A stretch of DNA of 64,000 nt from Balneolaceae bacterium (GTDB lineage Bacteria > Bacteroidota > Rhodothermia > Balneolales > Balneolaceae), in the NCBI GenBank assembly GCA_007134695.1, contig SLKI01000015.1, positions 1 to 64,000 of the forward strand, read 5' to 3'. Positions 2,700 to 15,891 of this stretch are shown here, piece by piece. The notes under the pieces are model-generated. The model was not told where the DNA came from and did no database searches. It saw only the letters and a program-made list of their open reading frames with translations. Position 1 is the stretch's first letter. Every line of letters begins with the position of its first letter. The translations under genes and the position numbers were made by a program.

Positions 2700-4073
2700 C
2701 TACAGCATTTTCCGCAACCGATCCAGTCCCGGATTACCGGGTGAACCCAATTGTGTATAGCCCTCCAGCCTTGCGTCCGGATCGATATCAAAGGTCCCCT
2801 CTTGCAGTTGACCCTTCACTTTCCGGTAGGCTTCTCGAAAGCTGTATCCCTGCTCCTTGACCAGCCGGTTGGCCTCTTCGGCCGCCATCATTTCCGGAGT
2901 ACAGGCTTCACGCATCGCCTTCTCATTCCACTGGATCGCATCCACAAGAATTGATGAAGCCTCCAGTAACGATTCGGTCAATTCAAACGCCCGAATCACC
3001 GGCTCCTTGGTCAGCTGAAGGTCCCGGTGATATCCCGATCCGATCTGCTGAATGATACCCCGAAGCGTAGCTTCATGCCCTTGCATCAGGGCGTTCTTGC
3101 CGCGTACAAGCTCTGCCAAATCGGGGTTCTTTTTATTCGGCATGATACTCGACCCGGTACAGACAGCCGGATCCAGATCGATCAAGCCGTAAGCTTCGCT
3201 GCTATACTGAATAATGTCGTCGGCCAGGCGCGCCAGCAGAGAGGTGATGCCGGAAAGGTACTGCACCAGCTGCATCTCCACCCATCCCCGGCTCAACTGG
3301 GCTGATGCGGCACTTATCAGCGGCCTTATAAAACCGAGAGCGTCTGCCTCCTCATCCCTGTCGAGGTCAATGGTCGTCCCGAAACCGGCGGCTGTACCCA
3401 GCGGTGAGCGGTCTGTAAGCTCCCGAATGCCTGATGAAGCCTCCATCTGAAGGATGATGAGTTCGGCATAACCTGCCAACCACTGTCCGCCGCTGGATAG
3501 CATCGCCTTCCGGGTATGCGTATAACCCGGCATCGGCAACCGCCGCCCCTCCTCTGCCTTATCGAGAAGCCGGCCGGCAAACTTCCCGGCAAGCTCCAGA
3601 ACTTCTCCGAGTCGATCCTTTTCGAACAGCCTCATAGCGGTGAGCACCTGATCATTTCGGGAGCGCCCGGTGTGGATCTTCCCCCCAACCCCCCCGAACC
3701 TCTCCGTCAGCCAAACTTCAATCGCCGTATGACCGTCCTCATGCTCAGCGAGAATCTCAAACCGGCCATCTCCATGCAGCTCACCGATCTCTGCCAACCC
3801 GCCCTGCAGCGACTCTGCCTCCTCATCGCTCACCAGCCCGGCCTTGCGCAACTGCTCCAGGTGGACGGACGATGCCTCCAGATCGTAGGGCAGCAGAACC
3901 TGATCCAGCTCGATGTCGTTGCCGACCGTGAACGCTTCGACCCGCTTCTCCAGGCTTCCGGCTGTAGTATTTCCGGCTGCATCCTTCCCTCCGACCGCAC
4001 CACCCTTACTCTCCGCCGAACCGCCCTTCCGCCGAGAATCATCTCCGTTATCCGCCTTCCAAAGCTTACTCAT
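2700..4073 (-). CDS. argH: Argininosuccinate lyase
   Basis: Splits argininosuccinate into arginine and fumarate, the last step of arginine synthesis in the cytoplasm. The protein has 457 residues, normal for the family. The fumarase/aspartase superfamily signature GSSIMPNKKNPD is present, along with TGRSRNDQV and the HTHLQ-equivalent TGYTHT-like region (MPGYTHTRKA). Odd point: between the usual N-terminus (MSKLW) and the conserved VEAFTVGND there is a Gly/Lys/Ala/Asp-rich insert of about 30 residues (about residues 8-38) that looks like a flexible low-complexity linker. It is the third gene of argF-argG-argH, 56 bases after argG, and is presumably controlled by the attenuator upstream of argF. 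Confidence 0.95.
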   Translation of the reverse strand: MSKLWKADNGDDSRRKGGSAESKGGAVGGKDAAGNTTAGSLEKRVEAFTVGNDIELDQVLLPYDLEASSVHLEQLRKAGLVSDEEAESLQGGLAEIGELHGDGRFEILAEHEDGHTAIEVWLTERFGGVGGKIHTGRSRNDQVLTAMRLFEKDRLGEVLELAGKFAGRLLDKAEEGRRLPMPGYTHTRKAMLSSGGQWLAGYAELIILQMEASSGIRELTDRSPLGTAAGFGTTIDLDRDEEADALGFIRPLISAASAQLSRGWVEMQLVQYLSGITSLLARLADDIIQYSSEAYGLIDLDPAVCTGSSIMPNKKNPDLAELVRGKNALMQGHEATLRGIIQQIGSGYHRDLQLTKEPVIRAFELTESLLEASSILVDAIQWNEKAMREACTPEMMAAEEANRLVKEQGYSFREAYRKVKGQLQEGTFDIDPDARLEGYTQLGSPGNPGLDRLRKML

Positions 4074-4129: not shown

Positions 4130-5452
4130 TTACTTTTCAGTTACCAGCTCCTGACCGGAACTCTCCGGTACCGGGTTCAAACCCTGCTGATCAGCCGCTA
4201 CCTGCTGTTTGAGCTGATAGGAGGATTTTTGCGGCAGATTCCACAACTCGATAAATCCGGGCGACGCATTCTGGTTGAACGCCTCCGACCGATTGAACGT
4301 CGCCAGATTCTCGTCAAAAAGCGACCATGGAGAGGTCAATGCGACCACATCACAATTGCCCTTGTAGAGCCTGAGTGTTACCTCGCCGGTCACCTTGGAG
4401 TTCTGCTCATCAATATATGCACGTATGTTGTCCATCACAGGTTCAAAATATTTAGCTCCGTAACAAAGATAGGCCCACTTCTGGTCGATCATCGTTTTCA
4501 GTTCGTTCTCCTCCCGGGTCGATACCAGTTGTTCGAGCTTTTTGTGTGCACTGATAAGGATATGTGCGGCCGGATTCTCGTAGATCCCCCGCACTTTGAG
4601 CCCCACTACACGATCTTCGATCAGATGGAAACAGCCGACCCCGTGAAATCCACCGATCTCGTTGAGATTGCCGATCAGGTCGGCCGGGGCCATCTCCATA
4701 TCATCGAGTGATACCGGCTTGCCTTCTTTAAATCCGATCTTGACAAGCTGCGGTTCGTCCGGTGCCTTCTCCGGAGTATTGCACCATTTGAGAATCTTCT
4801 CCAGCGGCGGAATGTTGGCGGGATCTTCAATTTCTCCGCCCTCCCCGGTGTTGGCCCACATATTCTCATCGTACGAATAGGGCGATTTTTTGGTCTGTTC
4901 GACCGGAATTCCGTGCTTTTCAGCATAGGCGAGTTCCTCTTCGCGGCCCATCCCCCACTCCCGCACCGGAGCGATGATCTTGAGATCGGGGTTGAGGGTT
5001 GTGATGTAGCTCTCGAATCGAACCTGGTCGTTCCCTTTTCCGGTGCAGCCATGGGCGATCACTTCGCAGCCATATTCAGCGGCCACCTGGACGGCGAGCT
5101 GAGAGATCATCACTCTTCCGAGCGGGCAGCCGAGAGCATACCCTCCCTGGTAGTCGGCGTTCGCCTTGACCGATTCCAGGCAAAGTTCGGCGAACTCCTC
5201 TTTGGCATCGAGTACGACCGCATCAGCCGCCCCCAGGTTGATCGCTTTCTGTTTGATCTGTCCGAGATTGTCGGCTGTTTGTCCGATATCGACCGTGAGG
5301 GCGATCACTTCACACTCATACTCCTCTTGGATCCAGGTAAGCATAACGCTGGTATCGAGGCCGCCGGAATAGAGGAGCAGGCACCGGTCGAAGGTCCCGC
5401 TTTCAGCTTCGTGGGAGGCAACTTTTTTGTAGGTCTGGTTTGTTGTTTTCAT
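4130..5452 (-). CDS. argG: Argininosuccinate synthase
   Basis: Joins citrulline and aspartate with ATP to give argininosuccinate. The ATP-pyrophosphatase P-loop LLLYSGGLDTSV lies near the N-terminus, and the GCTGKGNDQVRFE and ALGCPLGRVMI blocks are typical of ArgG. The start is set at ATG 5452 (MKTTNQTYKK), giving 440 residues. The frame extends 27 codons upstream into the argF end, but that extension is not family-like. The gap to argF is 65 bases, and argH follows. The C-terminal 30 or so residues (Gln-rich, after the LWNLPQKS block) extend beyond the usual end of the protein and look disordered. Confidence 0.95.
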   Translation of the reverse strand: MKTTNQTYKKVASHEAESGTFDRCLLLYSGGLDTSVMLTWIQEEYECEVIALTVDIGQTADNLGQIKQKAINLGAADAVVLDAKEEFAELCLESVKANADYQGGYALGCPLGRVMISQLAVQVAAEYGCEVIAHGCTGKGNDQVRFESYITTLNPDLKIIAPVREWGMGREEELAYAEKHGIPVEQTKKSPYSYDENMWANTGEGGEIEDPANIPPLEKILKWCNTPEKAPDEPQLVKIGFKEGKPVSLDDMEMAPADLIGNLNEIGGFHGVGCFHLIEDRVVGLKVRGIYENPAAHILISAHKKLEQLVSTREENELKTMIDQKWAYLCYGAKYFEPVMDNIRAYIDEQNSKVTGEVTLRLYKGNCDVVALTSPWSLFDENLATFNRSEAFNQNASPGFIELWNLPQKSSYQLKQQVAADQQGLNPVPESSGQELVTEK

Positions 5453-5517
5453 CGTTCTTAGCTGTTTGGTATTGAGTTTTCTATAAGAATTTTTGTGTTC
5501 CAGTTGTATCCGACCGG

Positions 5518-6459
5518 TCATGTGCAAAGCCATCCGAAGACTCCTTTGGATACGACCATCCGGTTTCTGGCTTGCTGATGCACCCAGGAGTTGGAGTGGT
5601 CGATCACCTCGTCGGTAACCTCGATTCCGCGGTGAGCCGGCAGGCAGTGCATAAAACCGGCACCGTTGTTAGCTTGCTCCATCAGTTTCCCATTCACCTG
5701 GTAAGGCTTGAAATGGTTCAGCTTCTCCTCCATCATATGCTCCTCGCCCATCGAGACGAAGGTGTCGGTGTAGATCACGTCGCTGTTTTTGACCGCTTCG
5801 GCCGGTTCGAACGTATGGGTAAATGAGCTGCCGTGGTCTACAGCAAGAAGGCCGAAATATTGAAGCTGATCCTGGCTCCAGTAGTATTTCTCCGGCCCGG
5901 TAAAACGGACGTCGTGGCCAAATTTCAGTGCGATCTCGATCAGTGAGAAGGCGACATTGTTGGCATCTCCGACAAATGTGAGGGCCACTTTCTCCTCCCG
6001 GCCGAACCGCTCCTGAAGGGTTAACATGTCGGCAAGGGCCTGCATCGGGTGATGCTTGTCGCACAAGGCGTTAACTACCGGGATCTCGGCGTAATCGGCC
6101 ATCTGTTCCAGCGTCTCGTGCGCATAGACCCGTGCAAAAATGGCATCACACCACTGGGAGATGTTCCTCATGGTGTCCTTGATCGACTCTCGGCTTTCAT
6201 AGGGGTCCTGTTCGGTCTCGAGAACAACCAGAGGATCAGCCTGGATTACATTGCCTCCCAGGTGGTTAATGGCCGCTTCGGTACCCACACGAGTCCGGAG
6301 TGACGGTTTTTCGAATACAAACAGGATGTTTTTGCCCTGAAGCACAGGTTTCGGTTTCTCCTCCAGCGCCAGGCTCAAATCGATCAGCGACTGAAGCTGG
6401 TCGGCTTCGCACTGGCCGACGGTTAAAAGATCGTTCATGGGTAGTACAGAGATAGACAT
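5518..6459 (-). CDS. argF: Ornithine carbamoyltransferase
   Basis: Carbamoylates ornithine to citrulline. The carbamoyl-phosphate loop appears as FEKPSLRTRVG, a known variant of STRTR, and the ornithine-side signature HCLPAHRG is intact near the C-terminus, as is the KYYWSQDQ/DTFVSMGEE region. The length of 313 residues fits. Bacteroidota often carry N-acetyl- or N-succinylornithine transferases instead, so the exact substrate should be treated as likely rather than proven, although HCLPAHRG favours ornithine. It is the first gene of the arg operon. The 107 bases between its ATG and the attenuator terminator hold no further structure that I can see. Confidence 0.88.
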   Translation of the reverse strand: MSISVLPMNDLLTVGQCEADQLQSLIDLSLALEEKPKPVLQGKNILFVFEKPSLRTRVGTEAAINHLGGNVIQADPLVVLETEQDPYESRESIKDTMRNISQWCDAIFARVYAHETLEQMADYAEIPVVNALCDKHHPMQALADMLTLQERFGREEKVALTFVGDANNVAFSLIEIALKFGHDVRFTGPEKYYWSQDQLQYFGLLAVDHGSSFTHTFEPAEAVKNSDVIYTDTFVSMGEEHMMEEKLNHFKPYQVNGKLMEQANNGAGFMHCLPAHRGIEVTDEVIDHSNSWVHQQARNRMVVSKGVFGWLCT

Positions 6460-6566
6460 TGGGTTCAGCAGTTACGGTTTTAGGGTTTGAAATTGGATTC
6501 GGGTAAACGTTTAAGGCGGGAAAGGAACCGGCTTGCGGAAAGGCGTAAGCCAAAAAAGTGTCAAAC

Positions 6567-6601
6567 AAAAAAAAGCCCGCTCAAAACTGGTTTGAGCGGG
6601 C
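6567..6601 (-). terminator. Attenuator terminator upstream of argF
   Basis: On the minus strand an 11-bp perfect stem (GCCCGCTCAAA pairing with TTTGAGCGGGC, plus-strand arms 6591-6601 and 6575-6585) encloses a 5-base loop. It is followed directly by eight U residues. This is a textbook intrinsic terminator. It lies between the Arg-rich leader ORF and argF, so it must be bypassed for argFGH expression. Confidence 0.9.
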
Positions 6602-6645
6602 GTGCAAGAAGTTCCTTAAGAAACTACACTCATCTCACGCGCCCG
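6597..6645 (-). promoter_or_regulatory. Antiterminator pairing of the arg attenuator
   Basis: In minus-strand RNA the segment CGGGCG inside the leader ORF (plus 6640-6645) is the exact complement of CGCCCG, the outer 5' arm of the terminator (plus 6597-6602). The pairing continues after one mismatch with 6 more pairs, two of them G-U (6633-6638 with 6604-6609). This gives 12 of 13 pairs enclosing a small 6-bp hairpin (6610-6625). The same CGGGCG can instead pair with CGCCCG just upstream (6648-6653, over Arg and Pro codons). These are the mutually exclusive 1:2, 2:3 and 3:4 structures of a ribosome-controlled attenuator. Pairings were read by eye; folding energies were not computed. Confidence 0.75.
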
Positions 6646-6701
6646 TACGGGCGGCGACGGCGAAGAAGAGTAGCGTTGATATTTTCGCTTGTGTAGTTCA
6701 C
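6630..6701 (-). CDS. Arginine leader peptide (23 codons)
   Basis: A short ORF starting GTG and ending TGA encodes VNYTSENINATLL, then RRRR, PYG, R, V and R. Six of its last ten codons are Arg, four of them consecutive (CGC CGT CGC CGC at 6651-6662). It ends 28 bases before the terminator stem. Stalling on the Arg run would cover the upstream CGCCCG and free CGGGCG to block the terminator. Translation to the stop would cover CGGGCG and let the terminator form. The start codon is inferred: the frame stays open upstream, but the sequence there does not look coding. Confidence 0.8.
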   Translation of the reverse strand: MNYTSENINATLLRRRRPYGRVR

Positions 6702-6708
6702 GGCTAAC

Positions 6709-6738
6709 AGTATAAAAACTTCCGGAAACAAAATGCAA
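6709..6738 (-). promoter_or_regulatory. Putative promoter of the arg leader and operon
   Basis: On the minus strand a TATACT -10 element (6709-6714) lies 18 bases from a weak -35 TTGCAT (6733-6738). The expected start of transcription falls at about 6702, at or one base before the leader GTG, so the leader peptide mRNA could be leaderless. It does not match the TAnnTTTG pattern seen at the tRNA gene, so confidence is moderate. Confidence 0.45.
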
Positions 6739-6985
6739 CAGGGTTTCTGAAATTTTCTGATGCGGTCTTGATATTTTGGTTCAAAGCCCTTTGAATCTTT
6801 CCGCGGCATACGGAGGAGTTGAGCCGAGCAATCCAGGCTTACGGGACAAACCACACCCGGCATCCAGACACATTCACAAACCCGCATCACCTGAATGAGA
6901 AAACCGCTGATTTTGTTACCTTATCGACTCCCGAAGAAGGGATCTGATCGTTGCAAACAATCTGCACGCTAATTCAAACAGCTAA

Positions 6986-7558
6986 ATGAAGTCCAAAATC
7001 ATGCTAAAACGAATTGTTACACTGATCACACTTGCACTTTTTATCTCGGCTTGTGAAGAGCAGCAGGAGCTGCCCGAACCGGTGGAAGATGTTCCGGTTT
7101 ACGACCGACTGATCGCCGTGATCCATCCGACCGAAGGAAACGACACCCAGGGAGTTGTCACTTTCAGCCGCGAAGGGGACGATGTGCGAGTTGTCGCCAC
7201 CGTCGACGGCCTGGATGAAGAAGGGCTTCACGGATTCCATATCCATCAGTATGGAGACTGTTCGGCGGAAGATGCTACATCAGCAGGTGGACACTTCAAC
7301 CCGTACGGCATGCCTCACGCAGGCCCGACAGATGACGAGCGGCACATGGGCGATCTTGGCAATCTGGTATCGGACGAGAATGGTATCGCAACGCTGGACT
7401 ATATTGATCCGGTCATCGAACTGGATGGAGAGTTTTCGATTGTCGGCCGGTCGGTTGTTGTACACGCTCAGCAAGATGACCTGGAAACCCAGCCAACCGG
7501 TGACGCCGGCGCCCGGCTCGGTTGCGGCGTAATCGGTATTGCCGAACCGGTCGATTAA
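6986..7558 (+). CDS. sodC: Cu/Zn superoxide dismutase, lipoprotein
   Basis: Converts superoxide to hydrogen peroxide and oxygen in the periplasm or on the outer membrane. A hydrophobic signal with lipobox LFISAC (Cys at about residue 23) is followed by an acidic linker and the SodC domain. Metal ligands are visible in GFHIHQYGDC and GGHFNPYG, further His in the HAGPTDDERHMGD block, and in SVVVHAQQDD. The disulfide partner lies in the GARLGCGVIG block. The length of 190 residues is normal. The ATG at 6986 is used; the in-frame ATG at 7001 also gives a good signal. The gene stands alone, 95 bases before the downstream peptidase ATG. Confidence 0.93.
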   Translation: MKSKIMLKRIVTLITLALFISACEEQQELPEPVEDVPVYDRLIAVIHPTEGNDTQGVVTFSREGDDVRVVATVDGLDEEGLHGFHIHQYGDCSAEDATSAGGHFNPYGMPHAGPTDDERHMGDLGNLVSDENGIATLDYIDPVIELDGEFSIVGRSVVVHAQQDDLETQPTGDAGARLGCGVIGIAEPVD

Positions 7559-15421: not shown

Positions 15422-15607
15422 TTATGGTTGATACCAGCGTCTGGATAGATTACTTCAATGGTGTAATCACGAAGCAGACTGATATACTTGTTGACGCACT
15501 ATCCAATGATGATATCCTTCTGGGCGACATCATTCTGGCAGAACTCTTGCAGGGTTTCGAAAAAAATTTGAATTTTCGAGACCACTTCTTACTTTTTCGC
15601 AGACACA
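15418..15607 (+). pseudogene. VapC PIN-domain toxin, 5' remnant
   Basis: The first 60 or so residues are a clear PIN domain start: MIMVDTSVWIDYFNG with the first catalytic Asp, then DIILAELLQGF with the catalytic Glu. After about residue 62 similarity ends and the frame runs into the cobalamin riboswitch, stopping at 15819. The C-terminal half with the remaining acidic residues (the D-L-IA and D-DF motifs) is missing, so the ribonuclease is almost certainly dead. The 133-codon open frame is an artefact of reading through the riboswitch. Confidence 0.75.
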
Positions 15608-15611
15608 CCAA

Positions 15612-15850
15612 GATGGTGTCTGGTTCTTCCGAATCGGAAGATGAAAAGGGAATCCCGTGTAAACCGGGAGCTGTACCCGCAACTGTAAACCTCTGCCGCC
15701 TGTTATTTTACAGGCCGGCACATGCGACAAGCCTTACCTGGCCACTGTTCGCGCTTCAGTTCACATTACATCTGTACACTTTACTTCTGAAGCGCAAACG
15801 GGAAGGATGCTTGTTGTGAGGGGAGCCAGGAGACCTGCCAGTCATCGAAC
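15612..15850 (+). ncRNA. Cobalamin (B12) riboswitch
   Basis: The conserved blocks of the class I cobalamin aptamer appear in order: GGTGTCTGG at 15614, GATGAAAAGGGAAT at about 15640, GGGAGCTGTACCCGCAACTG at about 15666, the variable arm, GGGAAGGATGC, and the B12 box GAGCCAGGAGACCTGCC at 15823-15839. It precedes the TonB-dependent receptor and BtuG-like gene, which makes vitamin B12 repression of uptake the natural reading. No intrinsic terminator follows, so control is probably at translation initiation. Boundaries are approximate. Confidence 0.92.
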
Positions 15851-15891
15851 TGTTGAGCCTTCGGGTAAAAGGCTTGCGAACAGAACGAATA

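Follow-up and report, generated by a model that had tools for sequence, protein, structure and literature searches.

The argFGH operon of a Balneolaceae bacterium is preceded by an RNA leader that is best read, with a probability of about 0.9, as a ribosome-mediated transcription attenuator responding to arginyl-tRNA and governing the operon. The leader lies in a 64,000-nucleotide stretch of genomic DNA (here called the window, and meaning the whole of that stretch). An earlier note on the same DNA had seen in it the logic of the his and trp attenuators applied to arginine, and that proposal is now supported by the conservation of the leader's elements, by compensatory changes in its pairing strands, and by control loci that have no such leader.

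Leader elements ahead of argF

The leader covers approximately 135 nucleotides of the minus strand ahead of argF-argG-argH. Its elements, and the genes that follow, are:

6733..6738, minus strand: -35-like element TTGCAT; the spacing of its TTG is conserved in argF-type leaders
6709..6714, minus strand: -10-like element TATACT, 18 nt past TTGCAT, read from the sequence
6701-6630, minus strand: leader ORF MNYTSENINATLLRRRRPYGRVR, 23 codons, GTG start, stop codon TGA, read from the sequence
6651..6662, minus strand: Arg codon run CGC CGT CGC CGC (codons 14-17), the proposed sensor
3' part or end of the Arg run, minus strand: strand 1, CGCCC (extended, CGCCCG)
6634..6646, minus strand: strand 2, the CGGGCGCGUGAGA region at the end of the leader ORF, pairing partner of strand 1 or strand 3
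6597..6609, minus strand: strand 3, UCUUGCACGCCCG, antiterminator partner and the terminator's first arm
6601-6575, minus strand: intrinsic terminator stem-loop GCCCGCUCAAACCAGUUUUGAGCGGGC, 11 pairs, -20.1 kcal/mol
6574-6567, minus strand: U tract of eight U, directly after the terminator stem
5518..6459, minus strand: argF, ornithine carbamoyltransferase, first gene of the operon (NCBIfam TIGR00658, 310.7 bits, above cut-off)
4130..5533, minus strand: argG, argininosuccinate synthase (NCBIfam TIGR00032, 453 bits)
2700..4073, minus strand: argH, argininosuccinate lyase (NCBIfam TIGR00838, 274.6 bits, just under the 279.5 cut-off)

The arrangement as first read is real and exact. The 23-codon ORF that had been claimed, with four consecutive Arg codons and two more after them, is present in full (Arg at codons 14-17, 21 and 23), as is the strong intrinsic terminator with its eight U, and the dual pairing attributed to CGGGCG within the ORF is precisely as described: its alternative partners are the preceding CGCCCG and the CGCCCG of the terminator arm, and the second interaction, between strands 2 and 3, extends to 12 of 13 pairs, two of them G-U. 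The placement directly before argF-argG-argH likewise stands, the gene identities having been confirmed by NCBIfam. The terminator sits between the leader ORF and argF, about 108 nt before the latter, and is the sole terminator-like site on either strand in a scan of 6400-7000. On the other side of the leader, at 6986, the neighboring gene (a SodC-like superoxide dismutase) is divergent, and the terminator therefore belongs to no other minus-strand gene. The fold of the leader beats 200 of 200 shuffles (z -2.7), and a chance origin is excluded because the leader is conserved in 24 relatives. Elsewhere in the window, a cobalamin riboswitch (15604-15856, plus strand, 85.7 bits) immediately precedes, and overlaps at its start (15853), a 673-aa ORF that looks like a TonB-dependent receptor.

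Conservation among relatives with the same argF

An ArgF search of 92 genomes of the host family turned up close relatives, at 56-67% identity, in 27 others; relatives with the same argF and a contig extending far enough upstream number 24 in all. A search with argF of 84,980 named genomes gave one relative only. Comparison of the upstream regions, which the earlier note had put forward as a check, found the Arg-run ORF, the terminator and the competing antiterminator all kept in 24 of 24, with compensatory changes. The relatives' leader ORFs start with ATG, are 19-21 codons in length, and carry four or five consecutive Arg codons. Seven further genomes, from two other families, have the same layout, their runs holding three Arg codons or more, and in nearly all leaders the run begins at codon 12-15 despite unrelated flanks. 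Two loci (L030 and L031) are no counterexamples: their argF is a different one (33% identity), located behind argD without a leader, and belongs to another gene cluster.

Two further features of these leaders may be recorded. Their Arg codons, in the argF-type and in the second, argG-type form described below, are nearly all CGC or CGT (233 of 272 counted), unlike those of ten large ORFs of the window, in which the commonest Arg codon is CGG (33%). A block, RRGRAYTTATC, is conserved before the terminator in argF-type leaders (e.g., L003 and L012; around 6606-6618 in the window), and its AAGGA portion lies within the antiterminator loop.

A covariance model built from the leaders of the argF-type relatives refinds those of the family with E values of 1e-13 to 1e-31 and, in the window's own genome, has this site as its single match, even when E values up to 10 are allowed. 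Applied to 396 genomes of the phylum, the model (R1) gave real matches in families f2 and f4; most of its weak matches there were discarded, having neither an Arg run nor an arg gene. Within the family, the sole other match at the level of these leaders is a relic in genome G043 (L056 / L215), reading RRRRCLLGM, in which an Arg codon CGC has become TGC and GGGCG has become GGGCA. Neither an argF of this type nor argG was found in that genome, and downstream of the relic there is a weak, six-residue match to the end of ArgF. To judge from these remnants, the decayed leader is probably a regulatory relic that outlasted the loss of its operon.

Covariation of the antiterminator

Antiterminator and terminator are mutually exclusive, and the antiterminator helix has changed in a manner that preserves it. 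In core alignment A2, which was made by hand with bulges removed by hand and so leans towards structure, 85.6% of the helix cells are paired and 7 of 12 pairs carry changes in both partners; none of 500 shuffles does as well, and neither shuffles nor slides attain the values of the helix for pairing, double changes or covariation. An independent test set each leader's strand 2 against the strand 3 of every lineage. A leader's own two strands pair better than mixed ones, permutations doing as well only 3 times in 20000 for the argF type, 116 in 20000 for the argG type, and 159 in 50000 for distant members of the class. Individual leaders illustrate the changes: in L009, L010, L016 and L025 the terminator arm CGCCUGC replaces GCCCGC, and strand 2 has changed to match, as has the last terminator arm; L027 has GGGCGAAAUACUU as strand 2 and AAGUAUUCGCCC as strand 3. 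The proposed protector hairpin of strands 1 and 2 (CGCCC:GGGCG) is present in the argF type, where four of its five pairs never vary, so that covariation is uninformative for it; no equivalent was assigned in the argG type.

A proposed kinetic switch

The ORF, its pairing strands, the terminator, and their conservation and covariation are observed; from them we infer that the ORF is translated, that ribosomes stall in it, and that the operon responds to arginine. When arginyl-tRNA is plentiful, the ribosome would pass the four Arg codons and reach the stop codon, covering strand 2; strand 3 would then pair with strand 4, the terminator would form, and transcription would end before argF. When arginyl-tRNA is scarce, the ribosome would stall within the Arg run and cover strand 1, leaving strand 2 to pair with the newly made strand 3, so that no terminator forms and argFGH is transcribed. 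In a leader that is left untranslated, strand 1 would pair with strand 2, and the terminator would again form.

For a ribosome at the Arg run and one at the stop codon, the RNA beyond the ribosome was folded with the last arm of the terminator not yet made, and the E. coli trpL and hisL leaders served as yardsticks. In 49 of 49 leaders the terminator's first arm is more sequestered with the ribosome at the Arg run than with the ribosome at the stop codon (mean 0.59 stalled vs 0.25 at the stop). The values for the window are 0.51 and 0.12, and trpL exhibits the same pattern (0.62 and 0.0); the two states of hisL are not separated in this simple calculation. At equilibrium, the complete window RNA favors the terminator in both states (0.95 stalled, 0.98 at the stop), as does complete trpL RNA (0.94 and 0.95), and folding of full argF-type leaders did not separate starved from fed states. 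Since the terminator wins at equilibrium in every state, the switch must therefore be kinetic, and decided as the RNA emerges. Many argG-type leaders flip even at equilibrium, with the terminator near 0 when the ribosome is stalled and above 0.85 when it is at the stop codon.

Transcript start

The leader transcript appears to start at its own ORF. In 24 of 25 argF-type leaders the start codon of the ORF has a TTG 35-37 nt ahead of it, and if this TTG belongs to a -35 element, transcription starts at the start codon or only a few bases away, leaving the ORF leaderless or nearly so. In the window the predicted start is at about 6702, at or beside the leader start codon, and the leader mRNA is thus probably leaderless, as judged from promoter-like spacing. 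A strict sigma-70 scan reported no promoter site at the window's leader. A-tracts occur upstream in many of the argF-type leaders (the window, L002-L028). The start codon is GTG in the window and ATG in all relatives; on a transcript that is probably leaderless, the GTG may be poorly translated and the leader accordingly weakened.

A second form ahead of argG, and its spread through the class

Other families of the order have a different kind of argG, with about 30% identity to the ArgG of the window. At 18 of 20 loci in families f2, f3, f4 and f56, the cluster led by this gene is preceded by an ORF with an Arg run (e.g., RRRRFRRR or RRLRRRR) and then by a terminator. The leader sequence is unrelated to that of the argF type. 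Here strand 2 (UGUGAAGAUUGUGUC) pairs with the first arm plus the loop of the terminator (GGCAGGAUCUUCGCG); in L143 and L145 the partners are GAAGGA and UCCUUC, and in L067 they are GAAGAAUC and GAUUCUUC. In six more families of the class (f5-f10), 9 of 9 loci examined show an Arg-rich ORF before argG, and in each a terminator-like hairpin and an antiterminator can be assigned, e.g., GGAACCGGCGC vs GCGCCGGUUCC in L172. Small ORFs were identified with regular expressions that look for runs of Arg, and three loci fail or are borderline by that definition: the Arg runs of L144 and L082 are weak or borderline, exceptions to the pattern, and L146 (genome G451) keeps a terminator and antiterminator-like strands before argG, with a leader ORF that has no Arg run.

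Elsewhere in the phylum, i.e., in Bacteroidota outside the class, the Arg leader ORF is absent from 31 of 31 argG loci. The Arg leader is absent as well from 21 of 21 host-family loci with the other argG (L147-L150 and L153-L169, from other genera of family f1). In one representative of this group, G014, ArgG shares 54-67% identity with many ArgGs found outside the class and 48-53% with those from other families within it. Because it is nearer to genes outside the class than to those within, the comparison suggests that an incoming arg cluster has replaced the attenuated one in the genera that lack the leader.

Taken as a whole, it seems somewhat more likely than not that arginine biosynthesis is controlled across the class by leader-peptide attenuation instead of ArgR, in two forms of unrelated sequence that precede two kinds of arg cluster and are carried on leaderless transcripts, with the attenuator missing from lineages in which argG is like the genes found beyond the class. 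Locus L066 (G297, 1501-1617), from a different family of the phylum, has a candidate histidine leader peptide, MRNQNTHHHFYTCPQAS, and a terminator before a hisG look-alike.

What is conserved, and competing explanations

The end of the leader ORF is conserved in the argF type as a C-terminal PxGV, which would be expected if the product were an arrest peptide, poly-Arg or bound arginine stalling the ribosome from within the tunnel in the manner of the fungal arginine attenuator peptide or SpeFL. Runs of basic residues can slow ribosomes, which also counts towards this explanation. The residues ahead of the run vary freely, however, with only the Arg identity kept, and RNA strand 2 accounts for the conserved end: L139 and L142 have their stop codon ahead of strand 2, yet that strand (GAAGAUUGUGUC) is kept outside the ORF and is therefore conserved as RNA. 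Arrest by free arginine would, moreover, stall ribosomes when arginine is high and so switch expression on, the opposite of what a biosynthetic operon requires. Nascent-chain arrest is accordingly considered unlikely.

The attenuator reading also fits the codons of the run itself. In nine argG-type leaders of one family, the seven Arg codons have 1, 0 and 7 variable sites at codon positions 1, 2 and 3, respectively, and flanking codons in the same leaders are variable at all three positions. This third-position variation within the run has the appearance of selection on Arg codons and would be a sign of translation in the argG-type leaders. It also argues against a terminator that acts constitutively, or a short leader RNA that is stable and works in trans, in which the Arg run would be a by-product of GC-rich pairing. 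The strength of the terminator (-20.1 kcal/mol) and its dominance at equilibrium are what such a constitutive element would exhibit, but a compensating antiterminator incompatible with the terminator, and a position before arg genes, are not, and this explanation is less probable again than peptide arrest.

Least credible, to the point of dismissal, is an arginine repressor binding DNA or RNA, or a T-box, with the terminator as its target: these are the usual bacterial controls for arginine (T-boxes as cited in PMC1262725), but none of the 92 host-family genomes encodes ArgR (9 of 14 controls give a signal), a T-box covariance model has no match in the window's genome (5 of 14 controls give one), and no Rfam family reaches its cut-off at the leader at gathering or relaxed thresholds. 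The best amino-acid leader family there is Trp_leader (RF00513), with 17.3 bits against a cut-off of 41. Among 18 relatives the sole Rfam match was NsiR1 in L064 (39.8 vs 39), which is borderline and was taken as a chance hairpin similarity.

Relation to known systems

Leader-peptide attenuators are textbook controls of the trp, his, leu, ilv, thr and phe operons, and arginine biosynthesis is customarily assigned to ArgR or to T-boxes. Like the window's leader, E. coli trpL and hisL combine a short ORF carrying a run of the cognate codons, a four-strand switch and an intrinsic terminator with a biosynthetic operon downstream. The window's leader differs from both in its Arg codons, in its target argFGH, in its sequence, and in an ORF that is probably leaderless.

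Arginine is sensed by leader peptides in several other settings. In the Salmonella speF leader, consecutive Arg codons of orf34 sense arginine and switch the RNA structure (PMC6386406); a leader ORF with consecutive Arg codons is shared with the window, but speF encodes an ornithine decarboxylase for putrescine, and control is exerted via Rho and RNase G with no intrinsic terminator. The rbfL leader peptide of S. aureus similarly has Arg codons in a short ORF that sense arginine limitation, but it acts by blocking the ribosome binding site of a biofilm regulator, and limitation represses instead of inducing (PMC13009471). An upstream leader peptide has been reported, and attenuation proposed, for Pseudomonas carA (as cited in PMC4997734); there, according to the same citing source, attenuation is attributed to pyrimidines, arginine acts transcriptionally, and carA serves both pathways, unlike the window's operon. 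The fungal arginine attenuator peptide, as cited in PMC2928234, is comparable as an upstream peptide that responds to arginine and precedes a gene of the arginine pathway, but it is eukaryotic and translational, and depends on arrest by the peptide sequence at high arginine.

For bacterial arginine biosynthesis itself, a study of Actinobacteria that searched upstream of arginine operons saw no conserved RNA structure there (PMC1262725), and what that source says of other bacteria includes arginine control by T-boxes. The main text of a Flavobacterium transcriptome study describes leader-peptide attenuation before amino-acid operons that it leaves unnamed (PMC9723704), and an arginine case may be among them. 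No leader-peptide attenuator for a bacterial arginine biosynthesis operon was found in the literature searched, from which subscription journals were mostly absent; within that compass, the earlier suggestion that an arg attenuator of this kind may be new is supported. The mechanism is thus a known one, and its arginine specificity, the RNA family and the class-wide spread appear to be new.

Recognition of the leaders annotates a small ORF that otherwise goes unannotated and an RNA family absent from Rfam. If confirmed, the attenuator would fill the arginine gap among leader-peptide attenuators and would explain how arginine synthesis can be controlled in a large group of bacteria without ArgR. 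It would also provide a well-sampled regulatory RNA in which the logic has been kept while the sequence has been almost wholly replaced.
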